Below, piece after piece: positions 1,685 through 22,556 of a DNA stretch of 64,000 nucleotides. Both the position numbers and the translations under genes were made by a program. The notes under the pieces are model-generated. The model was not told the origin of the DNA and searched no databases. It saw only the letters and a program-made list of their open reading frames with translations. The stretch comes from Candidatus Poribacteria bacterium. GTDB lineage: Bacteria; Poribacteria; WGA-4E; WGA-3G. The stretch lies in assembly GCA_022825665.1 (NCBI GenBank), contig JAJDWI010000060.1:1-64000 (forward strand), read 5' to 3'. Numbering within the stretch: the first letter of the stretch is position 1; each line of letters begins with the position of its first letter.

Positions 1685-2638
1685 ATGAAGAAAACTTTTG
1701 TAGGAATAGACATCGGAGGAACGAAACTCGCTACCGTCGTTGCCGATGATTCAGGGAAAATACTCAGCAAAGTTAGAAGACCTACTCAAGCAGAAAAAGG
1801 TCCTGAATATATTATTGATCTCCTGTTTGAGATGATAAATGAAACTATCGTACAAGCAGGACTGAAACAGAATGCAATTTCAGCAATCGGTGTCAGTTGT
1901 GGGGGTCCATTAGATACAAAAACTGGGATCGTCTATTCTCCACCCAATCTACCCGGTTGGAATTCGTTTCCACTTAAAGCAAGACTTGAATCAGAGTATA
2001 GTATTCCTGTTACGATTGAAAACGATGCGAATGCATGTGCACTTGCAGAATATCGGTTCGGCGGGGGAAAAGGTTATGATGCTGTGCTTTATATGACTAT
2101 GAGCACGGGAATCGGTGGTGGTATCGTCCTAAATGGACAGGTATATCACGGTGCTAATGACAGTGCTGGAGAAGTCGGTCACCAAATACTATTACCGGAT
2201 GGACCTTTGTGTGGATGTGGACAACGTGGGTGTCTTGAATCTCTCTGCTCAGGACCGGCAATTGCACGCCGTGCAAAAGAAGCAATTCAAAAGGAATCTA
2301 ACACAATGATCTTTGCACTTGCAGATAGACAGATAGAATCAGTGAAATCTGAACATGTTCTGGAAGCAGCTCTCAAGAATGATCCATTAGCACTAAAGTT
2401 AATTGATGAAACAGCATATTATATGGGGTGGGGTATAGCAAATATTGTAAACATATTGAACCCGGACATAGTGTTATTGGGAACGATTGCAATCGCTGCA
2501 GGAGACTTGCTCCTTGTACCTATCCGAAAGTATGTTTCATCATTTGCTATGGCACGTCCTGCTGAAGTCGTTAAGATAATGCCAGCACAGTTGGGTGATA
2601 CATTAGGTGATCTTGCTGCTATCGCATTAGTTGTGTAA
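1685..2638 (+). CDS. ROK-family sugar kinase
   Basis: Predicted glucokinase-like or N-acetylhexosamine kinase-like ROK protein of about 317 residues with no N-terminal helix-turn-helix, so an enzyme rather than a repressor. It has the ATP-binding FVGIDIGGTKL segment at the N-terminus, the sugar-binding ENDANACALAE segment, GEVGH, and the ROK zinc motif CGCGQRGCLE. The ATG at 1685 lies one base after the kinase stop. An ATG at 1670 in the same frame would add MTNCN and overlap the kinase. I prefer 1685 because the family usually starts just before the GIDIGGTK motif. Substrate unknown. Confidence 0.85.
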   Translation: MKKTFVGIDIGGTKLATVVADDSGKILSKVRRPTQAEKGPEYIIDLLFEMINETIVQAGLKQNAISAIGVSCGGPLDTKTGIVYSPPNLPGWNSFPLKARLESEYSIPVTIENDANACALAEYRFGGGKGYDAVLYMTMSTGIGGGIVLNGQVYHGANDSAGEVGHQILLPDGPLCGCGQRGCLESLCSGPAIARRAKEAIQKESNTMIFALADRQIESVKSEHVLEAALKNDPLALKLIDETAYYMGWGIANIVNILNPDIVLLGTIAIAAGDLLLVPIRKYVSSFAMARPAEVVKIMPAQLGDTLGDLAAIALVV

Positions 2639-2660
2639 GATTTACAGGAGCATTAACGGA

Positions 2661-3224
2661 ATGGAGAGAATTCAAAATTATATTTCGCACCTACAGGGTG
2701 TTCTGGAACGTCTAAAACTCGAAGATGTGCGTCAATCCATAGATGTTATTATGGATGCCTATCATGCAGATAAACAAATATTTGTTATAGGCAATGGGGG
2801 AAGTGCATCTACAGCATCACACATCGCATGTGATTTAGGTAAAGGAACAAGCATTGAAGGTAAACCGCGTTTTAGAGTTATCAGTTTAACTGATAACGTT
2901 GCGACAATGACCGCTTGGTCTAATGATGTATCCTACGAAGATGTGTTCGTCGAACAACTGAAAAATCTTGTAAATTCAGGAGATGTCGTAATTGGAATCA
3001 GTGCAAGTGGCAATTCAGAGAACGTAATCCGAGCAATGCATTACGCATCAGAAATAGGGTGTCCGACAATAGGCTGGAGTGGCTTTGGTGGTGGAAGATT
3101 AGCAACGATCTGCGATGTTAATGTTATTGTTGACAGTAATCAGTATGGACCTGTTGAGGATGTACACCTTATATTAAACCATGTCGTTCATGCTTGGATT
3201 AAAGAAGAATTTACAGTGACATAA
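2661..3224 (+). CDS. SIS-domain phosphosugar isomerase (GmhA/DiaA-like)
   Basis: A 187-residue single SIS-domain protein. The segment VIGNGGSASTASHIACDLGKG is the phosphosugar-binding loop of the GmhA/DiaA family, and GISASGNSENVIRAM is the second phosphate-binding loop. The ATG at 2661 follows AGGAG at 2646-2650; an upstream in-frame extension to 2631 overlaps the ROK gene and has no ribosome site. Third gene of the operon, so it probably isomerises the phosphorylated sugar made by the kinases. Sedoheptulose-7-phosphate isomerase activity is possible, but no other heptose genes are nearby. Confidence 0.8.
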   Translation: MERIQNYISHLQGVLERLKLEDVRQSIDVIMDAYHADKQIFVIGNGGSASTASHIACDLGKGTSIEGKPRFRVISLTDNVATMTAWSNDVSYEDVFVEQLKNLVNSGDVVIGISASGNSENVIRAMHYASEIGCPTIGWSGFGGGRLATICDVNVIVDSNQYGPVEDVHLILNHVVHAWIKEEFTVT

Positions 3225-3301
3225 ACATTACACAACATATCTAATTCTGTTTTATATCAGGACATATGCATAATCCATTTTAGATGAGGAAATATTAATC
3301 G

Positions 3302-3330
3302 TTGACATAGAAAATCAGGCAACGTACTAT
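3302..3330 (+). promoter_or_regulatory. Sigma70-type promoter
   Basis: TTGACA (3302-3307), a 17-base spacer and TACTAT (3325-3330). The -35 box is perfect and the -10 box matches TATAAT at 4 of 6 positions. It points at the small gene at 3535, about 200 bases away. An inverted repeat (3375-3397, 10-bp arms with a TTT loop) lies in the resulting leader. Confidence 0.5.
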
Positions 3331-3534
3331 GTTTGACTTGATAAAGCATTTGACCCATTTCATATGAGGAGAATGATTTAAGCATTTTGCTTAAATCCAA
3401 AAATATAATACCTCAGTAAGAACAAATTGGACATAGGTTATAGAACTATTCGGAATTAGTCGTTTTGGACTTGAATAAAATTGTTTAAAAGAGTGTAATA
3501 AACTTTGGAAAATATACTGAGGTCAGAAAGGAAA

Positions 3535-3834
3535 ATGAAGATGCGAAACTTTAATCTGCATGGCAAACTAATAACCGCACCCTGTTTTGAAGAAGTTCCA
3601 ACTCATGAAGCAATGGATAAGTACATTCCTCCTGATTACAACTCTTCAAAAATCGAAAAAGTTACTTTTAGTTTCTGTCGGGATGGTAAATCAGAAAAAA
3701 TAAAGGTGGAAGTTTACGGTCCCTTAGCAATTAAGGTCTTCCAAAATCTTAGACATGGGAAAAACTGTGAACTTGTGTTTGATAGGATAGTTGGCGCAAG
3801 TTTACCACTCTATCCAAATGATGTTATTTATTAA
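3535..3834 (+). CDS. Hypothetical protein
   Basis: A 99-residue protein that I do not recognise. It begins MKMRNFNLHGKL, has no signal peptide or membrane segment, and alternates charged and hydrophobic stretches as a small soluble domain would. The ATG at 3535 follows AGAAAGGA; an in-frame TTG at 3505 is possible but lacks a ribosome site. It stands alone behind a good promoter, with a 170-base gap before the WD40 gene. Confidence 0.5.
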   Translation: MKMRNFNLHGKLITAPCFEEVPTHEAMDKYIPPDYNSSKIEKVTFSFCRDGKSEKIKVEVYGPLAIKVFQNLRHGKNCELVFDRIVGASLPLYPNDVIY

Positions 3835-4005: not shown

Positions 4006-5931
4006 ATGAAAAAACTTAGTTTAGAAAATTTATTGATACTTCTTTTTTTATCTATCGTGTTTCTACAGAACAGTTTTGCCGATGTAAAAAACGAAGTTAT
4101 ACTAGAAAGTTCTGTCCCAGATTATACAACATGGTCATTACCAAAAAACGCAAAGTCACGCTTAGGTAAAGGCTATATAAACGAACTCCAGTATTCTCCA
4201 AACGGTACACGACTAGCGGCGGCAAGTAGCACTGGGATTTGGATTTACGATTCAATAACACTTCAAGAAATCCTACTTCTCACAGGACATACGGGAGTGG
4301 TCAATAGTGTGGCATTCAGTCCAGATGGAAAAACTATCGCAAGTGGTAGCTCGGACTACACTATACGATTGTGGAATGCAAATACGGGCAAACACATACG
4401 TTCATTTACAGGGCATACGAGTTCTATCACAAGTGTCACCTTTAGCCCCAATGGAAAATATATCGTAAGCGGAAGTAGGGACCGTACAGTACGATTGTGG
4501 AATGCAAATACGGGTGAAAACACGAAAAAACTTACATCGCATATAGATTCAGGGTCAGCCAATAGCGTCACAGTTAGTCCTGACAGGGAATATATCGCAA
4601 GTGGGAGGGGTGAGGGCAGCATCGCTTCGGGTATCATTGACTTATGGGATGCTAATACAGGTGAGCACATAGGTTCTCTTGTAGGACATGCAAGTTCAGT
4701 CAATAGTTTGACATTCAGTCCTAATGGGAAATATATCATTAGTGGGGGTGATAATGGCATCATTAACATGTGGGACGTAAACACAAAAAAGGATCTGAAA
4801 AAACTTGAAGTACACATCGGGAGTGTCAATAAGGTTGTGTTTAGCCCAAATGGTAAAACTATCGCAAGTTGCGGTGAAGACACTACAATACGAATATGGG
4901 ATGCTATCACAGGATCACACACTACACTTATAGGACATAAGAAGTTTGTCAATAGTGTAGCATTTAGTCCAGATGGTAAAACTATCGCAAGTTGCAGTTT
5001 GGACAATACTATACGATTGTGGGACACTAACACAGGCAAAAACATACACTCTCTAACAAGATCAGGTCATATGCATATTGTCGGTAGCGTTACCTTTAGT
5101 CCAGATGGAAAAATGCTTGCAAGCAGAAGTTGGGATGGGACAATCTTATTGTGGGATGTTAACACGAGCACACATATACAAACTCTCACAAGCGCGACTT
5201 CCCTATCATTCAGTCCAGATGGAAAAACTATCGCAAGTGGTAGTACAGATAACACTATACGATTGTGGGACACCAACACAGGAACACATAACCGAATCCT
5301 TACACGACATACTAATACGGTTAATAACGTAATATTCAGTCCTGATGGAAAATATATCGTAAGCTCGGATGACAATACTATACAATTATGGGACGCTGAA
5401 ACAGGTGAAAAAATACACTCTCTCACTGGGAATACTGATACGGTTTATAGTTTGGCATTCAGTCCTGATGGAAAATATATCGTGAGTGCAGGTAAGGATA
5501 AAAAAGTCCGGTTATGGAATGTTAGCACGGGAACACATATCCGAACTCTCACAGGCCATACGTGGCACGTCAGTAGCGTAGCATTCAGCCCTGATGGAAA
5601 AACCATTGCAAGTGGAAGCGCGGCTTTTGACAATACAATACGACTTTGGGATTTTGCTTCGGGCATTCAACTTCGTATTCTTACAGGACTTACAAACAGT
5701 ATTTTATACCGCCCTGTGTCATTCAGTCCTGACGGAAAATATATCGCAAGTGAAGGAGAGAACCACGCAATACAACTGTGGAATGTGAGGACAGGTGAAC
5801 ACATACACTCTTTTACAGGGCATATGCATAGCATCAATAGTTTAGCATTCAGTCCTGATGGAAAATATATCGCAAGTGCAGGGTGGGACCACACGGTTAT
5901 GTTGTGGGAACATACACTTTCTGATAAATGA
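4006..5931 (+). CDS. Secreted 14-blade WD40 repeat protein
   Basis: A 641-residue protein with an N-terminal signal peptide (MKKLSLENLLILLFLS..., cleavage probably after NSFA, about residue 25) followed by WD40 repeats to the C-terminus. I count 14 blades, each with SPDGK or SPNGK, IASGS or IVSGS and a terminal LWD or LWN, which would fit two seven-bladed propellers. Some blades lack the GH dipeptide. The start at 4006 is chosen because it places the signal peptide at the N-terminus; an in-frame ATG at 3907 would bury it. Probably a periplasmic or surface protein-binding scaffold. No catalytic domain is visible. Confidence 0.85.
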   Translation: MKKLSLENLLILLFLSIVFLQNSFADVKNEVILESSVPDYTTWSLPKNAKSRLGKGYINELQYSPNGTRLAAASSTGIWIYDSITLQEILLLTGHTGVVNSVAFSPDGKTIASGSSDYTIRLWNANTGKHIRSFTGHTSSITSVTFSPNGKYIVSGSRDRTVRLWNANTGENTKKLTSHIDSGSANSVTVSPDREYIASGRGEGSIASGIIDLWDANTGEHIGSLVGHASSVNSLTFSPNGKYIISGGDNGIINMWDVNTKKDLKKLEVHIGSVNKVVFSPNGKTIASCGEDTTIRIWDAITGSHTTLIGHKKFVNSVAFSPDGKTIASCSLDNTIRLWDTNTGKNIHSLTRSGHMHIVGSVTFSPDGKMLASRSWDGTILLWDVNTSTHIQTLTSATSLSFSPDGKTIASGSTDNTIRLWDTNTGTHNRILTRHTNTVNNVIFSPDGKYIVSSDDNTIQLWDAETGEKIHSLTGNTDTVYSLAFSPDGKYIVSAGKDKKVRLWNVSTGTHIRTLTGHTWHVSSVAFSPDGKTIASGSAAFDNTIRLWDFASGIQLRILTGLTNSILYRPVSFSPDGKYIASEGENHAIQLWNVRTGEHIHSFTGHMHSINSLAFSPDGKYIASAGWDHTVMLWEHTLSDK

Positions 5932-6189
5932 TGCACAGCGGGCAAGTTGTGTAAGTTCTAACATATAAATAACCCAAATTGCTATGCATGAAAATTCGGA
6001 CATACATAGACTGTTCTAATAGATAATTATTCGACATATCCCGTAGTGTTAACTCTTAGTTTGCACCATCATATATTCAACTAATAGATTGTGCTACAGA
6101 GGTGGTAACTTAGGTTCAAATAGTAATCAGGACTATTAAATTTTCGGTTTTTCGGATATATTTTTCACAATTCAATAGATACTTTTTAA

Positions 6190-6255
6190 TTCGTGTAGAG
6201 GTGTGCGACACTAGACAGTATGATCGTTGTCTGGTGTCGCACACCTCTACACGAA
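6190..6255. repeat. Long near-perfect hairpin with 28-bp arms
   Basis: Bases 6190-6217 pair with 6228-6255 over 28 positions with a single G/T wobble, around a 10-base loop (6218-6227). It lies in the 499-base gap between the WD40 gene and nfeD. No T-run follows on the plus strand, so it is not a standard intrinsic terminator. The rest of the gap is AT-rich without a gene. Confidence 0.85.
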
Positions 6256-6332
6256 CTACAATATAAACACTTAGTACCACTCATCTACTTAGAAATCTTA
6301 AAACTAAATAGCCTAAATAAAAATGAAGTTTC

Positions 6333-6362
6333 TTGACACCACAATAGTTCTTAAGATATACT
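6333..6362 (+). promoter_or_regulatory. Promoter of the nfeD-floA operon
   Basis: TTGACA (6333-6338), an 18-base spacer and TATACT (6357-6362), 68 bases before the nfeD start. The -35 box is perfect and the -10 box matches at 5 of 6 positions. The next four genes on this strand follow with only one sizeable gap, where the 8488-8722 element sits. Confidence 0.6.
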
Positions 6363-6430
6363 AATAGCGCGAGATAAACAACAATAATATATAAAATGAA
6401 GTGCCATAGCAATCAATCTGGAGTGAAAAA

Positions 6431-7972
6431 ATGAAACGCAAGAGAACTCTACTATTTTATACGCTCCTCATAATTTTCTGCTTATCCTTGTTAGTTAGTA
6501 TATTCGCTCAGGAGACTGCTTTAGTTTATGTTCTGGATATTCGCACTGAAATCGGCGGCGGTGTTAGTTCATATATCATGAAAGGTATCCAAAGAGCAGA
6601 AGCGGCAAATGCAGATGCTATTATCTTTGATGTGGATACACCTGGCGGAAGAGTTGATTCTGCAGTCAAAATTATTAGATTGATTCAAAAGACGGAAATA
6701 CCTACTATTGCTTTTGTCAACCGACAAGCTATCTCCGCAGGGGCTATGATTTCTGCTGCATGTACACAGATTGTGATGACATCGGGGGCGACAATTGGTG
6801 ATTCAGAACCTGTGGACTCAAGAGGGAATGAGGTAAGTGAGAAAGTCGTTTCTTATATTCGAGGCACTATTCGTTCTACGGCAGAACGTCAAGGTAGAAA
6901 TCCGGACATTGCAGAAGCGATGGTAGACAAAAGACTTTTTCTCGTCCGATTAAAAAATGGCGATATAATTAAATTACGACCCGAGGAATACCTTAATGAG
7001 CAGGATGCAGGAACACAGATGGAGATCCTTTGTGCAAAGGGTGAACTCCTTAACATGACAACACGACAGGCTCTTGATTATGGATTCGCAGATGCACAAG
7101 CTGAAACTATATCAGAATTGCTTGAACAATATCAGATCGTGGAAGTAGATTTAAAATATAGAGAAGATAATAATGATGCTTTATTGATGGCACTTACCGA
7201 AGAAGGTATCATCAATAAACAGGAAGACATTGGTGTTGAGCAAGTCACACCCGTAAAATCTTTGAAAAATGCACAGATCAATCGCTTTGCTGTCACTATT
7301 GCTGACCGAATCGTCTTCTTTATAACAAGTCCATACATCAGTGCATTTCTACTATCGTTAGGTGGACTCGGACTTTTTGTTGAAATCCGCACACCAGGTT
7401 TTGGTATTCCAGGATTTCTCGGTATAATGTTCATCGGTTTATTCTTTGGTGGACACATGTTAAACCAAATTTCTTCAGCATGGATGCCACTTATCTTTGT
7501 AGTAGGATTAGCATTAATTGTTTTAGAGGTATTTGTTATTCCCGGTTTTGGAATTGCCGGAATCCTCGGAATAATTTTGATGTTTGGTAGTGTTTTTTAT
7601 GTATTTTTTGACAACACAGATGATATAAATATGGCTCTACTTTGGCTTTCTGTTTCTGTAATACTAACCTCTGTGTTAGCCATTCTTGCCACAATATTTC
7701 TGCCTAAATCAGCTCCATTTCAGCGGTTTTCGCTTTCCACTGTGATGAGTACTGATCTTGGTTACCATTCTGCCGGTCTTGAGGATTTTGAGAGTTTCCT
7801 CGGTAAAACCGGTGTTGCATTAACACCGCTTCGACCCGCTGGTACGGCAAGGATAGATAATAAGCGATTGGATGTAGTTACGGTCGGTGACTTCATCGCA
7901 CAAAATACACCTGTTAAGGTCGCGGAAGTTGAAGGATCGAAAATATCAGTTGAAGCTCTTGAGGACTATTGA
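6431..7972 (+). CDS. nfeD: NfeD-family membrane serine protease (stomatin operon partner)
   Basis: A 513-residue long-form NfeD. It has a signal peptide (residues 1-26), a ClpP/SppA-type protease domain (about 30-235) with PGG near residue 71 and the nucleophile motif SAG (Ser102), several membrane helices (about 290-420) and a C-terminal OB-fold NfeD domain (about 450-513). Lys138 is the likely catalytic dyad partner by spacing. Long NfeD proteins are known to cleave stomatin or flotillin-family proteins and are encoded beside them, and two floA genes follow here. The layout resembles yqeZ-yqfA of Bacillus. Confidence 0.88.
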   Translation: MKRKRTLLFYTLLIIFCLSLLVSIFAQETALVYVLDIRTEIGGGVSSYIMKGIQRAEAANADAIIFDVDTPGGRVDSAVKIIRLIQKTEIPTIAFVNRQAISAGAMISAACTQIVMTSGATIGDSEPVDSRGNEVSEKVVSYIRGTIRSTAERQGRNPDIAEAMVDKRLFLVRLKNGDIIKLRPEEYLNEQDAGTQMEILCAKGELLNMTTRQALDYGFADAQAETISELLEQYQIVEVDLKYREDNNDALLMALTEEGIINKQEDIGVEQVTPVKSLKNAQINRFAVTIADRIVFFITSPYISAFLLSLGGLGLFVEIRTPGFGIPGFLGIMFIGLFFGGHMLNQISSAWMPLIFVVGLALIVLEVFVIPGFGIAGILGIILMFGSVFYVFFDNTDDINMALLWLSVSVILTSVLAILATIFLPKSAPFQRFSLSTVMSTDLGYHSAGLEDFESFLGKTGVALTPLRPAGTARIDNKRLDVVTVGDFIAQNTPVKVAEVEGSKISVEALEDY

Positions 7973-14546: not shown

Positions 14547-15479
14547 ATGACAGAAATTATAAAACAAACTACATCCAACCAAATATCAGTACAGAGCGGG
14601 CAATATGACACCGTTTCAAAAGACTTAATTCATCAAAATCCAGAGGATTGGATAAAGTTTGGTCTCGGTATATCTGAAGTAAGGGTTATTCAGGTTATTG
14701 ATACTGAACAACCTACTGTTAGATCAAATCGTGCTGATAGTTTTATTCAGGCAGAAGTAAACGGTAGGGAATCAATTGTCCATTTTGAGATACAAACGCG
14801 AGATAGTACGGAAACACCTATGCCGCGCCGTATAGCAGGTTATGCAGGAAGATGTATTGAAAGTTTTGGATTGCCAATCTACTCACATGTCATCTATTTA
14901 CATCCTGATGCAGGTAGGAACGATCCAGGTCAATACCTACAGGAAATGGATGGTTACAGAATTTCGATCCATTACAAGGTAATTAGACTATGTGAATTAG
15001 AAGGTCAAAATGTCCTGGATGCGAAGCTCAAAGGTTTAATTCCCTTTGCAACATTAATGAAACCTAAAGAAGACACGAGTTCTGAGGAGTGGTTACGCCA
15101 GTGTGTTCAGGTTGCTAAATCTGTTACTCAGAATACTTCGCATCAAGCAGATTATCTTACCAACTTAGGTATTTTAAGTGGTATAATATTAGATTACGAA
15201 ACCATTCGTAATATTATAATGGAGGAAATTATGCAAGAATCATCTGTTATACAACACTATACACAACAAGGAATACAACAAGGAATACAACAAGGGGTAC
15301 GAGAGGGAACTATTGATTCTATACTTGATGTCCTTGAGGAACAATTTCAATCCGAAGATATTCAGACCTTAAAACCTGTACTTGAGAAAATTGATGAGCT
15401 GCAATATCTAAAACAATTACTTCGTGAGGCAGCGCGGGCAAATAGTCTTGAGGAATTCAAACAAACACTACCTGAATAG
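14547..15479 (+). CDS. Rpn/YhgA-like PD-(D/E)XK nuclease family protein
   Basis: A 310-residue protein of the type annotated as Rpn-family or putative transposase. Visible features are an Asp in NRADSF (about residue 62), the core VHFEIQTR (E-x-Q in place of E-x-K, about residues 77-84), a helical C-terminus and the glutamine repeat GIQQGIQQGVREG near residue 245, which is common in this family. Rpn proteins are linked to RecA-independent recombination in E. coli. No terminal repeats surround it. The SDR start lies eight bases after its stop. Confidence 0.75.
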   Translation: MTEIIKQTTSNQISVQSGQYDTVSKDLIHQNPEDWIKFGLGISEVRVIQVIDTEQPTVRSNRADSFIQAEVNGRESIVHFEIQTRDSTETPMPRRIAGYAGRCIESFGLPIYSHVIYLHPDAGRNDPGQYLQEMDGYRISIHYKVIRLCELEGQNVLDAKLKGLIPFATLMKPKEDTSSEEWLRQCVQVAKSVTQNTSHQADYLTNLGILSGIILDYETIRNIIMEEIMQESSVIQHYTQQGIQQGIQQGVREGTIDSILDVLEEQFQSEDIQTLKPVLEKIDELQYLKQLLREAARANSLEEFKQTLPE

Positions 15480-16201: not shown

Positions 16202-16556
16202 GCTGTTCTTAGACATATCCACGTCCCAGTGTTTCATTGTAACGTAAACTTAGCATCTTTCAACAAGGTGTTTCGGTCAATACTTTGCAACTGTTACGCA
16301 TTATTTTTACACTCCTGGAAATAATATCCAACTCATCAAATCAATTTCCATTGCCCAAAAAATAAGATTATTTTGCTTAAAAAATAAGCAACAAATTACT
16401 CAGTCTGAGTTTTCAACCTTTGAAAATCAACAAGGATATTGTTGTTAGTTGTTTGTGCATACTTGGCACTGATTTTGCTATAGGTTTTGTGTGAGTTATA
16501 ATAATGATTATATATTTACGCATTTTATTTGATTTGGAAAGGTTTATATTCAACAG
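16202..16556 (+). promoter_or_regulatory. Intergenic region with the nasT promoter
   Basis: AT-rich, no ORF. A hairpin TTGCTTA/TAAGCAA with an AAAAA loop lies at 16373-16391. A promoter fits at TTGCTA (16475-16480), a 16-base spacer and a perfect TATAAT (16497-16502), 54 bases before the ANTAR regulator gene. Confidence 0.45.
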
Positions 16557-17159
16557 ATGGAAGCTGTCGATGAAACACAGAATGTATTAATCGTTGATAA
16601 CGACCTGGAACGGACACATCTGTTGAACCGGGTTTTCGAGGGAAGTAGATATAACATCGTTGCGCACGTAGGACTTGAACACGATCTACTAAATCAAGTT
16701 AAACAAACAAGTCCGGACATAATCCTAATAGGTGTTGCTTCACCCTCTGATGAAACCTTAGCTGACATTGGATCTATCAATCAGAATCAGCCATGTCCAA
16801 TCGTTATGTTTGCACAGGATGACCGTTCTGAAACGATTCAAAATGCTACGTTGGCTGGTGTTTCAGCTTATGTTGTCGGTATGCTGTCTAAGGAACGAGT
16901 TGAAACAATTATTGAAGCAGCAATTGCACGTTTTGGTAAGTTTAGGGCATTACAAAAAGAACTTGAAAAGACAAAAACGAGTCTTGCAGAACGCAAAATC
17001 ATAGAACGCGCAAAGGAAATAGTGGCACAACAACGAGGTACAACAGAGGCAGAAGCATACCAAACTTTACGAAAAATGGCGATGGATCGTAGAAAACGTC
17101 TCGCAGAAATTGCTCAAGATGTCCTATCAATTGCCGCAGTATTGACAAATAAGGTTTAG
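16557..17159 (+). CDS. nasT: NasT-like ANTAR-domain antiterminator
   Basis: A 200-residue regulator. Residues 1-120 form a receiver-like domain (NVLIVDNDLERT...), but the usual phosphoacceptor position reads IILIGVAS instead of an Asp, so it is a pseudo-receiver. A short coiled coil leads into a C-terminal ANTAR RNA-binding domain (about 130-195) with the IIERAKEIVA and AYQTLRKMAMDRR elements. ANTAR proteins bind paired hexaloop hairpins in nascent RNA and prevent termination. Such a leader lies directly downstream (17246-17324), before nirA. No NasS-type nitrate sensor is encoded here, so the signal input is not visible. Confidence 0.85.
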   Translation: MEAVDETQNVLIVDNDLERTHLLNRVFEGSRYNIVAHVGLEHDLLNQVKQTSPDIILIGVASPSDETLADIGSINQNQPCPIVMFAQDDRSETIQNATLAGVSAYVVGMLSKERVETIIEAAIARFGKFRALQKELEKTKTSLAERKIIERAKEIVAQQRGTTEAEAYQTLRKMAMDRRKRLAEIAQDVLSIAAVLTNKV

Positions 17160-17245
17160 CGACCAACTCGCAACTTACTACATAATGAAATAGCGTTTGT
17201 TCGACGTTGAGCGACGCTACTATTACAAAATAAAAGAATAGCAAT

Positions 17246-17285
17246 ACCCAGCCAATGTAGGTATGGGTTCGGACATGGGTGTCCA
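17246..17285 (+). promoter_or_regulatory. ANTAR-binding tandem hexaloop hairpins in the nirA leader
   Basis: P1 (17246-17268): ACCC/GGGT and GCC/GGT stems separated by a small internal loop, with hexaloop AATGTA. P2 (17271-17284): GGAC/GTCC with hexaloop ATGGGT. Both loops have A at position 1 and G at position 4, the known ANTAR signature. The 3' strand of P2 (17281-17284) is also part of the 5' strand of the terminator at 17279-17324, so the two are mutually exclusive. Antitermination by the NasT-like protein encoded upstream is the natural reading. Confidence 0.75.
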
Positions 17286-17324
17286 TTTGGCAGAAGCATT
17301 ATGCATGCCGGTGGACACTTTTTT
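17279..17324 (+). terminator. Intrinsic terminator controlled by the ANTAR leader
   Basis: GTGTCCA (17279-17285) pairs with TGGACAC (17312-17318), with an inner GGCA/TGCC pairing, followed by six T residues (17319-17324). It lies 88 bases before nirA, on the path from nasT or a leader promoter into the nitrate genes. Its 5' strand overlaps hairpin P2. Confidence 0.8.
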
Positions 17325-17411: not shown

Positions 17412-18962
17412 GTGAACCAACCTGAGAAAAAATCAAGGATTAATAAAACAGTTTCCAAAAGAAACCGAAAAGCCAAAATTCATCCTGCAGAGGAACTCAA
17501 ACGTGAAAAAAATGGACTTGAGGTAATGGACGACATTCCATACTACGTCCGTAACGGGTGGGAATCAATTCCTCCAGAGAAACGGGACAGACTTAAGTGG
17601 GTCGGTGTCTTTTACAGAAAACAGACTCCCGGTGCTTTTATGATGCGTCTCAGGATGTCAAGTGGGTTTTGCAATGCTGACCAAATTCGAACAATAGCTT
17701 CAATCAGTGAAGCACACGGTCCAGGGTTCGTTGACCTAACGACACGCCAGCAGATTCAATTACGCGGGTTCACAATTGAGAATGTGCAAAACATCTGGAA
17801 TCAACTTGAAGATGTAGGTCTAAATTCTCTTCAAACTGGCTTTGATAATATCCGAGGTGTAACAGGTTGTCCTGTTGCTGGACTGACCCCCAATGAGTTG
17901 TTTGATGCATCACCTGTCGCCCAAAAATATACAGATATCATTACAGGAAACAAGGAATTTACTGACATTCCGCGTAAGTTTAATGTTGGGATAACAGGAT
18001 GCTTAGAGAACTGTACACATGCTGCTTCACAAGACATCGCACTCATCCCTGCTGTGAAAGATATTGATGGTCAAGAAGTCAAGGGTTTTAATGTCTCGGT
18101 GGGTGGGAAGATGGGATCTGGTGGTTACACGCTTGCAAAAGACCTGGATGTGTTTGTTCGTCCTGAAGATGCGGCTGAGTTATGTGCTGAAATTACCTTG
18201 ATATTCAGAGACCACGGACCCCGGACTGTTCGAAATAAATCGCGTCTCGCGTTCCTTATTGCTGACTGGGGAGTAGAAAAGTTCAGAGCAGAATTAGAGT
18301 CCCGTTTTCACAAAACACTTATATCAACAGGCAAAGATATGCGAGGAAAGAAAAAGACTGACCATACAGGCATTTTCTCTCAAAAACAGGAACATCTGAA
18401 CTATGTCGGACTTGTCGTGCCAGTCGGACGAATTACAACTACACAACTATACGAAGTTGCACGTATTGCAGACTTATACGGTACAGGAGAAATCAGGTTA
18501 ACTCAAGGACAGAATCTGATTGTTCCTAATGTACCGGATGCAAAAATTGGGAAATTAACTGCTGAACCACTTCTGCAAGAACTTCGATATGATCCTTCAG
18601 AAGTCATGCGTGGAATGGTTAGCTGCACAGGTATAGATTACTGCCATTTCTCACTCATAGAGACCAAAGAACGTGCTATGGAAGCAATCAAGCATTTAGA
18701 GGAAAAGCTCGGCAATACTAAACCTCTAACAGTGCATTGGTCAGGTTGTCCAAATGGGTGTGGAAACCATACCGCTGCTGATATAGGACTACTGGGTAAG
18801 AGAACGAAAATAGACGGTGTGGTTACTGATGCAGTTGATGTCTTTGTCAAAGGGAACGCAGGTCCAAATCCCAAAATTGCAACCAAATTGTTAGAAAATG
18901 TGCCTTGTGACGATTTACCACAAGTACTTGAAGGACTTGTCCCTTACTTTTCACGGAAATAA
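17412..18962 (+). CDS. nirA: Assimilatory ferredoxin-type nitrite reductase
   Basis: A 516-residue sirohaem/4Fe-4S nitrite or sulfite reductase. It has two ferredoxin-like half domains and the cluster ligands Cys405, Cys411 (SCTGIDYC), Cys446 and Cys450 (GCPNGC). DLTTRQQIQLRG is typical of NirA. It reduces nitrite to ammonium in the cytoplasm. It starts with GTG at 17412 after AGGAG, and has about 50 lysine-rich residues before the core. The nitrate transporter and nitrate reductase downstream decide nitrite over sulfite. Expression is probably gated by the ANTAR leader just upstream. Confidence 0.88.
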   Translation: MNQPEKKSRINKTVSKRNRKAKIHPAEELKREKNGLEVMDDIPYYVRNGWESIPPEKRDRLKWVGVFYRKQTPGAFMMRLRMSSGFCNADQIRTIASISEAHGPGFVDLTTRQQIQLRGFTIENVQNIWNQLEDVGLNSLQTGFDNIRGVTGCPVAGLTPNELFDASPVAQKYTDIITGNKEFTDIPRKFNVGITGCLENCTHAASQDIALIPAVKDIDGQEVKGFNVSVGGKMGSGGYTLAKDLDVFVRPEDAAELCAEITLIFRDHGPRTVRNKSRLAFLIADWGVEKFRAELESRFHKTLISTGKDMRGKKKTDHTGIFSQKQEHLNYVGLVVPVGRITTTQLYEVARIADLYGTGEIRLTQGQNLIVPNVPDAKIGKLTAEPLLQELRYDPSEVMRGMVSCTGIDYCHFSLIETKERAMEAIKHLEEKLGNTKPLTVHWSGCPNGCGNHTAADIGLLGKRTKIDGVVTDAVDVFVKGNAGPNPKIATKLLENVPCDDLPQVLEGLVPYFSRK

Positions 18963-19071: not shown

Positions 19072-20406
19072 ATGGAAATAAAAAATAAAGCAACACAAAT
19101 TAACCTTTTTAGTGTAAAGACGATTCATATGCGTACCTTTCACACGACATGGTTTGCGTTTTTCTTGGCATTTTTTGGTTGGTTTGGGATTGCGCCACTT
19201 ATGGCGATTGTACGTGAAGACCTATTGCTAACCAAGTCACAAATTGGAAATACCATAATTGCGTCTGTCGCAATTACGGTTTTAGTAAGGGTACTCATTG
19301 GTCCGCTTTGTGATCGTATCGGCGCGCGAAAGGCGTATACATGGATTCTAATACTCGGTTCAATTCCTGTCATGGGGATTGGACTTGCCCAAGATTATAC
19401 CTCTTTCTTACTTTTTCGCTTAGCAATCGGTGCCATTGGTGCTTCGTTTGTCATAACGCAGTATCATACTTCAGTGATGTTTGCCCCGAACTGCGTTGGA
19501 ACAGCAAACGCTACGACCGCAGGCTGGGGTAATTTGGGTGGTGGGGTTACCCAAATGGTGATGCCGCTGATCTTAACCGCTGTCCTGAGTTTTGGTGTAG
19601 ATAAGTTTCTTGGGTGGCGTTTGGCAATGATTATACCGGGTATTGCTTTGTTCATCATGGGATTTGTATATTATTTCCTAACACAGGATGCACCTGATGG
19701 AAACTATACAGAACTTAGAGCAAGTGGTCAACTTGAACCTGCTACGGGTAAGGGAATGGAATCGCTTATACTTGCGATTAAAGACTATCGCGTATGGGCA
19801 CTTTTTGTGATTTACGCGGCATGCTTCGGAGTTGAACTTACTATCAACAATGTCGCTGCGCTATATTATCACGATCAGTTTCAATTAGATGTCAAAACAG
19901 CGGGACTCATCGCTGGACTCTTCGGATTAATGAACATCTTTGCACGTTCTGTCGGTGGATATTTTTCTGATTTCTTTGCAAAATTCATTGGTCTCCGTGG
20001 ACGTGTTCTATTTCTGTTTGTTGTTTTATTAGGTGAGGGTATCATGCTCATCATCTTTTCGCAGATGAATGTCCTGATACTTGCTGTTGGTACTATGATA
20101 ATATTCAGTCTTTTTGTTCAGATGTCTGAAGGTGCGACGTTTGGAATTGTGCCTTTTATTAATAAGAAGGCATTAGGGTCTGTTGCGGGAATTGTTGGTG
20201 CGGGTGGAAACGCAGGTGCAGTTGCAGTTGGCTTCTTATTCCGTGCTGAAAACATCACGATACAACATGGGCTGTTTTTCCTCGGTGGAATAGTTGTTGT
20301 TGCAGCCTTTGCTACGGTGTTAGTGCGTTTCTCACCGGAGGTGCAAGCAGCAGAGAAAAAAGCTTATGAAGCCGCGCTCTCTGAAAGATATGCGTTCAAG
20401 AATTGA
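19072..20406 (+). CDS. narK: NarK/NasA-type nitrate/nitrite MFS transporter
   Basis: A 444-residue major facilitator with about 12 membrane helices. The segment NATTAGWGNLGGGVTQMVMP is the nitrate-signature region of the nitrate/nitrite porter family, and GAGGNAGAVAVGFLF is the second signature in the C-terminal half. The ATG at 19072 lies 15-20 bases after AGAAAGGA. Placed between nirA and nasA, it most likely imports nitrate for assimilation. Export of nitrite is a less likely alternative. Confidence 0.87.
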   Translation: MEIKNKATQINLFSVKTIHMRTFHTTWFAFFLAFFGWFGIAPLMAIVREDLLLTKSQIGNTIIASVAITVLVRVLIGPLCDRIGARKAYTWILILGSIPVMGIGLAQDYTSFLLFRLAIGAIGASFVITQYHTSVMFAPNCVGTANATTAGWGNLGGGVTQMVMPLILTAVLSFGVDKFLGWRLAMIIPGIALFIMGFVYYFLTQDAPDGNYTELRASGQLEPATGKGMESLILAIKDYRVWALFVIYAACFGVELTINNVAALYYHDQFQLDVKTAGLIAGLFGLMNIFARSVGGYFSDFFAKFIGLRGRVLFLFVVLLGEGIMLIIFSQMNVLILAVGTMIIFSLFVQMSEGATFGIVPFINKKALGSVAGIVGAGGNAGAVAVGFLFRAENITIQHGLFFLGGIVVVAAFATVLVRFSPEVQAAEKKAYEAALSERYAFKN

Positions 20407-20447
20407 AACGGTATGTTCCTACTTGATTATATAGATTGGAGAAATCA

Positions 20448-22556
20448 GTGAATAGTTCAACAGGAAAAGCTGTCTGTCCTTATTGTGGTGTTGGTTGTGT
20501 AATTCGGGCAGAGGTTAGGGAAAATAAAATTACAAGGATTTCAGCCGATGATGATGTTGCGCCAAATTTCGGTATGCTTTGTCCAAAAGGCGCACATCTA
20601 AAACAGGTATTTCAGAACCATGACGGACGGTTAGCATACCCAATGATTCGTGAAAGTAAGAGTGAACCGCTGCGTCAAGTTTCTTGGGAACAGGCAATAG
20701 CATTTGCAGCAAATCGGCTTCAAAACATCCGTTTAGAACACGGGAAGGATGCACTTGCACTCTACGGTTCAGGACAATTAGATACAGAAACATCTTACGT
20801 TTTCAATAAGTTATTTAAAGGGTTTTTGCGGACAAACAATATTGATACCAATAGCAGGCTCTGTATGTCTTCTGCGGTAGTTGGTTATATGCAAGCATTC
20901 GGTTCGGATGGACCGCCGACTTGCTATGACGACATTCAACATGCGGATGTGTTTCTGATTATCGGCGCGAACATGGCGGCAAACCATCCAGTTCTTTTTC
21001 AGATGATTCGCAAACGGAGGGCATCAGAACCTAATACACGGATTATCGCAGTAGACCCCAGACGCACCCAAACAGCAGATTACTCAGATATACATGTTCC
21101 GCTTGCACCGGGCAGTGATGTTGCTTTCCTTCAACTTATTGCCAAACGTCTACTTGCGAATGGACGTGTTGATAAACGTTTCATCCAAAGAGACACTGAG
21201 AACTATAGTGCGTATAAAAACCATCTTGAAAGTCTGGATGAGGACGAACTTCTTTCTATTTCTGACATACATCCCGGACGTGTTGATGAAATCGTAGAGT
21301 TTCTATCTAAACCGAATCGTTTGCTAAGTTTCTATTGTCAAGGAACAAACCAGAGCACGAGTGGTGTAGATAAAAATGCTGCGCTAATCAATCTCCATCT
21401 TCAGTTAGGTGAAGTTGGCAAAAGAGGTGCAGGTCCCTTTTCATTGACTGGACAACCGAATGCCATGGGAGGGAGAGAAGTTGGATATTTATCACACCAG
21501 TTACCCGGATATCGTGTTGTTACCAATGACATACACCGTGCCTATCTGGAAGGAGCATGGAGAATTCCACCCGGTAGCATAGACCCGAACCCTGGCTTAA
21601 CAGCAGTGCCTATGTTTGAGGCTGCTGCAGCTGGGGATGTCCGCGCGCTCTGGATTGTATGTACAAATCCTGCTGTCAGCATGCCCGATACAAAGGTTTC
21701 TCAAGCGGGACTAAAACGTGCTGACTTGGTGATTGTGCAGGATTGTTATTATCCGACAGAAACAACGGAATATGCGGATGTGTTGCTTCCTGCTGCACAA
21801 TGGGGTGAAAAGCGCGGCACAATGACGAATAGTGAACGTCTCGTTGTCCGCAGTGATAAATTCCTTACATCTCCTGGAGAAGCAAAACCGGATTGGTGGA
21901 TATTCTCACAAGTTGCGAAGGTGATGGGTTTCAAACGAGATTTTGATTTCCACAACCACGAGGAAATATGGGATGAATACCGCCTATTGACTGCTGGTAC
22001 TCCGTGCGACCAGATGGGTATGACTAATGAACGTCTTGAGAAGACATCACTCCGATGGCCCTGTCCTCATCCGAAACATCCTGGAACACTCCGAAGATAT
22101 ACTCGTCGAAAGTTCTTCACGTCATCTGGAAAAGCACAATTTAAAACACCTATTTATCGTCCACCGGATGAAAAAACAGATGAGGAATATCCACTCGGTT
22201 TAACAACGGGACGTGTTGCGAGTCAATGGCACACCCGCACTCGTACTGGGAAAGTACCACAACTTACTAAGAAAGATCCTGAACCCTTTGTTGAAATTCA
22301 TCCTGATGATGCTGAGGAAAACGGTGTAGAGGATGGCAATTGGGTATATCTTGTTGGAAGGCGAGGGAGATGTTATGCACAAGCACGTGTAACGGAGACA
22401 ATCAGGCGTGGGTTGCTCTTTACGCCATTTCACTGGGGAGACTTATTCCATGCTGAGTCCAATACCAATTATGTAACGAATCCAACATTTGACCCAGTGT
22501 CTAAACAACCTGAGTTGAAATTCTGTGCTGTGCGGATTGAGGTAGATAATTCGTAG
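20448..22556 (+). CDS. nasA: Assimilatory nitrate reductase, molybdopterin catalytic subunit
   Basis: A 702-residue molybdopterin oxidoreductase. The N-terminal 4Fe-4S ligands are Cys10, Cys13, Cys17 and Cys45 (CPYCGVGC ... CPKG). GQPNAMGGREVGYLSHQLPG is the nitrate-reductase region of the NasA/NarB group, and a molybdopterin-dinucleotide domain ends the protein (about 590-700). No Tat signal, so cytoplasmic and assimilatory. I chose GTG at 20448 because TTGGAG at 20436-20441 is its ribosome site; a TTG at 20436 would overlap that site. It lacks the C-terminal 2Fe-2S extension of some NasA proteins. Confidence 0.9.
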   Translation: MNSSTGKAVCPYCGVGCVIRAEVRENKITRISADDDVAPNFGMLCPKGAHLKQVFQNHDGRLAYPMIRESKSEPLRQVSWEQAIAFAANRLQNIRLEHGKDALALYGSGQLDTETSYVFNKLFKGFLRTNNIDTNSRLCMSSAVVGYMQAFGSDGPPTCYDDIQHADVFLIIGANMAANHPVLFQMIRKRRASEPNTRIIAVDPRRTQTADYSDIHVPLAPGSDVAFLQLIAKRLLANGRVDKRFIQRDTENYSAYKNHLESLDEDELLSISDIHPGRVDEIVEFLSKPNRLLSFYCQGTNQSTSGVDKNAALINLHLQLGEVGKRGAGPFSLTGQPNAMGGREVGYLSHQLPGYRVVTNDIHRAYLEGAWRIPPGSIDPNPGLTAVPMFEAAAAGDVRALWIVCTNPAVSMPDTKVSQAGLKRADLVIVQDCYYPTETTEYADVLLPAAQWGEKRGTMTNSERLVVRSDKFLTSPGEAKPDWWIFSQVAKVMGFKRDFDFHNHEEIWDEYRLLTAGTPCDQMGMTNERLEKTSLRWPCPHPKHPGTLRRYTRRKFFTSSGKAQFKTPIYRPPDEKTDEEYPLGLTTGRVASQWHTRTRTGKVPQLTKKDPEPFVEIHPDDAEENGVEDGNWVYLVGRRGRCYAQARVTETIRRGLLFTPFHWGDLFHAESNTNYVTNPTFDPVSKQPELKFCAVRIEVDNS

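Follow-up and report, generated by a model that had tools for sequence, protein, structure and literature searches.

The leader that separates an ANTAR regulator gene from a nirA-like gene in a genome of Candidatus Poribacteria is very probably a NasT-type ANTAR transcription-antitermination switch, which features a third hexaloop hairpin, P0, as a likely extra docking hairpin. The stretch of DNA that was analyzed (the window, 64,000 nucleotides) belongs to a Candidatus Poribacteria MAG of 4.53 Mb that is 95% complete, from a phylum with sponge-associated members, and the closest named matches are Candidatus Poribacteria in 46/46 cases. The features of the locus are as follows.

16463..16479, + strand: sigma54-type promoter site TTGGCACTGATTTTGCT, 12/13 consensus positions
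16557..17159, + strand: ANTAR regulator gene, 200 aa, Asp-less receiver and ANTAR domain (Pfam Response_reg, ANTAR)
17191..17219, + strand: P0, third hexaloop hairpin, loop GACGTT at 17203-17208 (G1, G4), from folding and the arm-swap and loop-identity tests
17246..17268, + strand: P1 hexaloop hairpin, loop AATGTA at 17254-17259, one bulged A
17271..17284, + strand: P2 hexaloop hairpin, loop ATGGGT at 17275-17280
17277..17324, + strand: intrinsic terminator overlapping P2, U-tract at 17319-17324
17412..18962, + strand: nitrite/sulfite reductase family gene, nirA-like (Pfam NIR_SIR, NIR_SIR_ferr)
19072..20406, + strand: MFS transporter (Pfam MFS_1), presumably for nitrate/nitrite, a substrate assigned from the operon
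20436..22556, + strand: molybdopterin oxidoreductase (Pfam Molybdopterin, Molydop_binding, Molybdop_Fe4S4), presumably an assimilatory nitrate reductase, a function assigned from the operon

Further upstream, a 310-aa open reading frame at 14547-15479 is without any Pfam match. The 252-base gap between the ANTAR gene and the nirA-like gene contains P1, P2, and the terminator. P1 reads CCCAGCC-AATGTA-GGT(A)TGGG, P2 reads GGAC-ATGGGT-GTCC, and both loops feature A1 and G4. The 5′ arm of the terminator (from 17277) is made of the end of the P2 loop and the P2 3′ arm, and its 3′ arm, GGTGGACAC, lies at 17310-17318 and is followed by six T (17319-17324). The terminator region folds with -21.8 kcal/mol (z -3.9; 0/200 shuffles were equally stable) and is by far the strongest fold in the leader, and the whole leader has a z of -3.1. 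P1-P2 alone has a z of -0.97, no better than shuffles, so that the case for the dual hairpin comes from comparison between leaders and not from folding energy. In the window, no Rfam family scored as high as its gathering threshold.

An ANTAR domain is found in 56/84 genomes of the phylum, each of which has exactly one ANTAR gene, and the gene in the window is the only one in its genome. The poribacterial leader covariance model gives 56.7 bits at 17245-17287, a leader that is itself one of the 45 training rows, and the next best score in the window is 8.1 bits. The model matches all 56 ANTAR genomes (55 at E ≤ 4.1e-4 and G077 at 0.0056), while the 28 genomes that have no ANTAR gene yield one weak match only (G023, 0.0045), which upholds the reading of this leader as an ANTAR leader in the first-pass annotation; one additional weak match was found in G079. 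In 55/56 loci no more than 480 bases separate the P2 motif from the ANTAR stop codon upstream of it, and in the other locus (L018, genome G069) the leader is ~530 bases downstream of the ANTAR gene. A single TAG inside the ANTAR reading frame of L012 (G037) may be a pseudogene, a sequencing error, or the true end.

The leader alignment, A2, contains 45/56 leaders, with the ten that carry an insertion in P1 and L018 left out. In P1 and P2, 94.9% of the cells are paired, the covariation score is 0.211 (shuffled, 0.140), and five pairs show changes on both sides (shuffled, 2.2); the covariation is higher than in column shuffles and in slid controls. Further pair types are no more numerous than in shuffles (99/500), and three of the four P2 pairs are invariant. 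In 56/56 leaders P2 is overlapped by a terminator stem with 10 or more uninterrupted pairs; the best-fitting stem was taken in each case, which makes its length an upper bound. The variable base that P2 and the terminator have in common finds a partner in either fold in 56/56 leaders, and the triplets formed by the P2 partner, the shared base, and the terminator partner are G-C-G (31), A-T-A (12), A-T-G (7), and G-T-A (6), so that the letter changes still follow both partners. Two hexaloops with A1 and G4 and a mutually exclusive terminator had been claimed for the window from its sequence, and this arrangement, like the covariation that was to be sought in homologous leaders, was borne out. 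Drift of the hexaloops would have counted against it: the P2 loop is conserved (the P2 regular expression requires A1/G4, and the covariance model, which has no strict requirement, finds the same sites), whereas P1 drifts in some relatives, with C1 in L013 and L014 and an interrupted hairpin in ten loci.

Folding of the gap revealed the further hairpin, P0, shortly after the ANTAR stop codon. P0 is present in 46/56 poribacterial loci with the form (N)TTC-hexaloop-GA(A/G) and absent in 10/56. Its loop features A1 in 43 loci, G1 in three (the window, L003, as well as L004 and L005), and G4 in 46/46, where A1-or-G1 and G4 are built into the search pattern and L005 was added by eye. A pattern-free test covered the gap hairpins that have a hexaloop and four or more Watson-Crick pairs in 55 poribacterial leaders (L018 out) and found A1/G4 in 38/55 leaders; the next loop class occurs in 10 and the shuffles give 1.9. 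The outer stem of P0 varies between species and makes a mean of 3.80 pairs with its own partner versus 2.29 with the arms swapped, and 0/5000 permutations paired as highly. RNAalifold on the P0 alignment (the 46/56 loci with a P0 call) returned four inner pairs only, with a covariation term of -0.21; it is limited to the inner pairs because the bulge beyond them moves, and the arm-swap test was therefore used instead. The poribacterial leader thus does not have exactly two hexaloops, as a dual-hexaloop leader does, since P0 is found in 46/56 loci and that of the window features G1.

The poribacterial model extends to Proteobacteria, where many of the leaders that it finds lie within 100 bases after an ANTAR gene. 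Forty proteobacterial NasT-type leaders were chosen by P1-P2 or by protein only, regardless of P0, and consist of 16 covariance-model leaders and 24 of 30 further loci; L154-L156 (apparent duplicates of L117, L114, and L110), L166 and L181 (no P2 found), and L180 (no T-run) were left out, and leaders found later were not added. An A1/G4 hairpin lies upstream in 17/40 of these leaders, of which several are close relatives and hence not independent, and other loop classes occur in at most three (shuffles, 1.1). When G-U pairs are allowed as well, P0 is called in 20/40 and not called in the other 20; its distance from the P2 loop downstream is mostly constant, at 52-65 bases in 18 leaders and 88 bases in two. 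Nine of the proteobacterial leaders that bear P0 have a sigma54 site with a score of at least 11, and in 9/9 the predicted start precedes P0, which would place P0 within the RNA. One proteobacterial leader, L182, features four A1/G4 hexaloop hairpins, 109, 57, 21, and 0 bases upstream of the P2 loop, with one terminator. In K. pneumoniae nasF a third A1/G4 hexaloop lies 58 bases before P1; judged by eye, it falls inside a sigma54-like -24 element and hence outside the likely transcript, and this leader was counted as dual. Among nine plasmid loci, leader model R2 gave E < 0.01 for the Klebsiella one only, and a third hexaloop was not seen in the intervals shown, with no A1/G4 hexaloop in L184, one in L185, and two each in L139 and L188.

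Some leaders have lost or interrupted one of the upstream hairpins. In ten loci of one genus (L017, L019, L021, L022, L025, L028, L029, L031, L035, and L039) a perfect or near-perfect hairpin of ~39 bases is inserted in the 3′ strand of P1; A1 of the old P1 loop has become G in four of the ten, P2 is intact, and P0 is kept in nine. The script tally over the 56 leaders is 36 with P0 and P1, 10 with P0 only, nine with P1 only, and one, L028, with neither by the strict script, where the P1 calls of L025 and L029 are doubtful and those of L006, L012, and L049 seem too strict. On the protein tree each label, P0 loss and P1 interruption, needs two changes, and few events are thus involved. Mutual compensation between P0 and P1 was considered and is not proven by this tally, because approximately two leaders with neither hairpin are expected by chance and one was seen.

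A sigma54-type site (score of at least 10 of 13 against the sigma54 consensus) lies upstream of the ANTAR gene in 52/56 loci, compared to 27/1120 shuffled regions, and is located 76-352 bases before the ANTAR match in those 52 loci. The loci that have no such site are three of family f3 and one contig end. In L058, a family f3 locus inspected by eye, an ammonium-transporter-like open reading frame (2437-3804) precedes the ANTAR gene and a 1060-aa NirB-like one (4683-7865) replaces nirA; no sigma54-type site was found there. The sigma54 factor family (rpoN) is present in 79/84 genomes. An internal promoter before the leader was rejected, since the ANTAR-leader intervals of the surveyed loci have no sigma54 site scoring above 8 of 13 and the + strand of the window at 17160-17246 has no sigma70-like site. 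The site before the ANTAR gene and the lack of one between that gene and the leader suggest that the ANTAR gene and the leader and operon are probably on one transcript. A palindrome, TTGCTTA-AAAAA-TAAGCAA, at 16373-16391 of the window, ~70 bases upstream of the sigma54 -24 element, is a possible activator site. The first-pass annotation is supported in its account of P1, P2, and the terminator and was incomplete in that it missed P0, the sigma54-type site, and the probable shared transcript.

The window regulator features Response_reg and ANTAR domains (Pfam) and is 36-48% identical to homologues outside the phylum. Among solved ANTAR structures, 1s8n and 6wsh align with almost the entire protein and 4akk with its ANTAR part; 1s8n and 4akk are presumably Rv1626 and NasR. 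The 6WSH structure is that of EutV, in which Arg142, Lys143, Lys147, Glu160, Tyr164, and Met172 contact the RNA (PMC8934654). These residues align with Arg146, Lys147, Arg151, Glu164, Tyr168, and Met176 of the window protein, which are invariant in 56/56 Poribacteria. The phospho-acceptor Asp is replaced in 56/56 Poribacteria (Gly in 53, Cys in two, Asn in one; Gly59 in the window protein), whereas the same position is Asp in 32/34 homologues outside the phylum. This agrees with the earlier description of the regulator as a pseudo-receiver, and the protein does not have the Asp of a phospho-activated response regulator of the EutV type. Asp-less receivers joined to ANTAR domains were already known (PMC4395418, PMC8934654).

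As in NasS-NasT systems, a NasT-type REC-ANTAR gene adjoins nitrate-assimilation genes; the NasS sensor of those systems was not found. The absence of an adjacent NasS, remarked on from the window alone, extends to the phylum, in that a Paracoccus NasS protein query has no match in 84/84 Poribacteria genomes and, as a positive control, finds relatives in 10/10 genomes elsewhere. A NasS/NrtA-like gene is found within the fetched ANTAR locus in 0/46 poribacterial versus 33/34 non-poribacterial cases, although some of the 33 are probably NrtA transporters and not NasS. NMT1_2 has a single weak match in the window's own genome, inside the binding protein of another transporter, and a NIT domain search gave no match in this genome, nor in the control, so that it carries no weight. 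The genomes of L105 and L124 (G084 and G089) have only one NasS/NrtA-like match each, and some proteobacterial NasT systems may also be without a separate NasS. Two inputs are possible: the sigma54 promoter could set how much regulator is made, or the Asp-less receiver could respond to an unrelated partner or ligand.

In the mechanism that we propose, the sigma54-type promoter would drive a transcript that starts with the ANTAR gene, after which P0, P1, and P2 would be made. If ANTAR is not on P2, the shared strand would pair downstream into the terminator and transcription would stop before nirA, and if ANTAR holds P2, no terminator would form and nirA, the transporter, and the nitrate reductase would be transcribed. 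P0 would most likely be an extra ANTAR docking hairpin, at which the nascent RNA captures the protein while P1 and P2 are yet to be made. The core of this scheme follows the dual-hexaloop model, in which ANTAR binding to P2 prevents the terminator (PMC3369931, PMC8934654).

Several alternatives were weighed against it. A plain intrinsic terminator, or chance hairpins between unrelated genes with no antitermination, would explain that the terminator dominates the folding, but it is extremely improbable given conserved loops and two-way pairing in all 56 leaders, the strict association with the ANTAR gene, and the fact that other phyla have matching leaders. Another alternative accepts the ANTAR switch and takes P0 to be a hairpin that stabilizes the 3′ end of the ANTAR mRNA, or else a dyad in the DNA to which another protein binds. 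In Poribacteria the inner stem, (N)TTC/GAA, keeps its sequence, as expected of a DNA dyad, RNAalifold finds little covariation in P0, and ten loci have no P0. The dominance of the A1/G4 loop class in the pattern-free test, its recurrence in the 17 proteobacterial leaders with different stem letters, the far better fit of the outer stems to their own partners, and the position of P0 downstream of the predicted start in all nine proteobacterial cases make this alternative unlikely, albeit one to be reckoned with, and favor P0 as an ANTAR docking hairpin.

The remaining alternative concerns the signal, namely that nitrate or nitrite is sensed through a protein like NasS that has diverged beyond the reach of the query, and not through the amount of regulator or an unrelated partner. 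Proteobacterial NasT works with NasS (PMC3795266), and the genome is 95% and not 100% complete. Both the query, silent across the phylum while recovering every control, and the empty poribacterial loci speak against such a protein, which we regard as improbable.

The poribacterial system resembles NasS-NasT of Paracoccus denitrificans and Bradyrhizobium in its same-family REC-ANTAR protein, its hairpin leader before nitrate genes, and antitermination (PMC3795266, PMC5424462, PMC6759348). It differs in that no NasS was found, there is no phospho-Asp, P0 is present, and the leader is in the regulator's probable own transcript; the P. denitrificans nasA leader is described with two hairpins, HI and HII (PMC5424462). 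The dual-hexaloop leaders of eut, nasF, and amiE share the A1/G4 P1-P2 and the terminator overlapping P2 (PMC3369931, PMC8934654), whereas the poribacterial leader has a third hexaloop upstream and K. pneumoniae nasF looks dual. The EutX / rli55 small RNA also features a dual hexaloop and an additional single hexaloop with G4 (PMC8934654); however, EutX is a small RNA that sequesters EutV, and the extra poribacterial hexaloop belongs to an mRNA leader, in which it precedes the terminator. AmiC-AmiR likewise uses an ANTAR antiterminator with an Asp-less receiver (PMC4395418, PMC8934654) and has different target genes. A three-hexaloop mRNA leader was not found in the open-access literature searched, where EutX is the nearest case and a report elsewhere is possible, and in the same literature "Poribacteria" and "ANTAR" co-occur as whole words in one paper only, on Asp-less receivers in general. 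The kind of switch is therefore a known one, NasT-type; what appears to be new, at the level of sequence, is the frequent third hexaloop and the absence of the usual NasS partner.

With moderate confidence, we favor a wider picture in which three hexaloops are common in the NasT-type antiterminators of at least two phyla and the first hairpin to be transcribed, P0, also binds ANTAR and can take the place of P1. In this picture, the loss of P0 and the interruption of P1 with P2 kept are natural experiments on the number of hexaloops that an ANTAR switch requires, and Poribacteria run the switch without a phospho-Asp or NasS, on a new sensor or on the amount of regulator alone. Judging from the EutV-RNA structure, a single dimer cannot bind the two hexaloops at the same time, yet both are needed (PMC8934654). 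The use of two hexaloops by an ANTAR dimer is thus unsettled, and the triple leaders and the sister lineages with P0 and P2 or with P1 and P2 make the question testable. For Poribacteria, an ANTAR nitrate switch that operates without NasS or a phosphorylatable Asp raises the question of what its signal would be.
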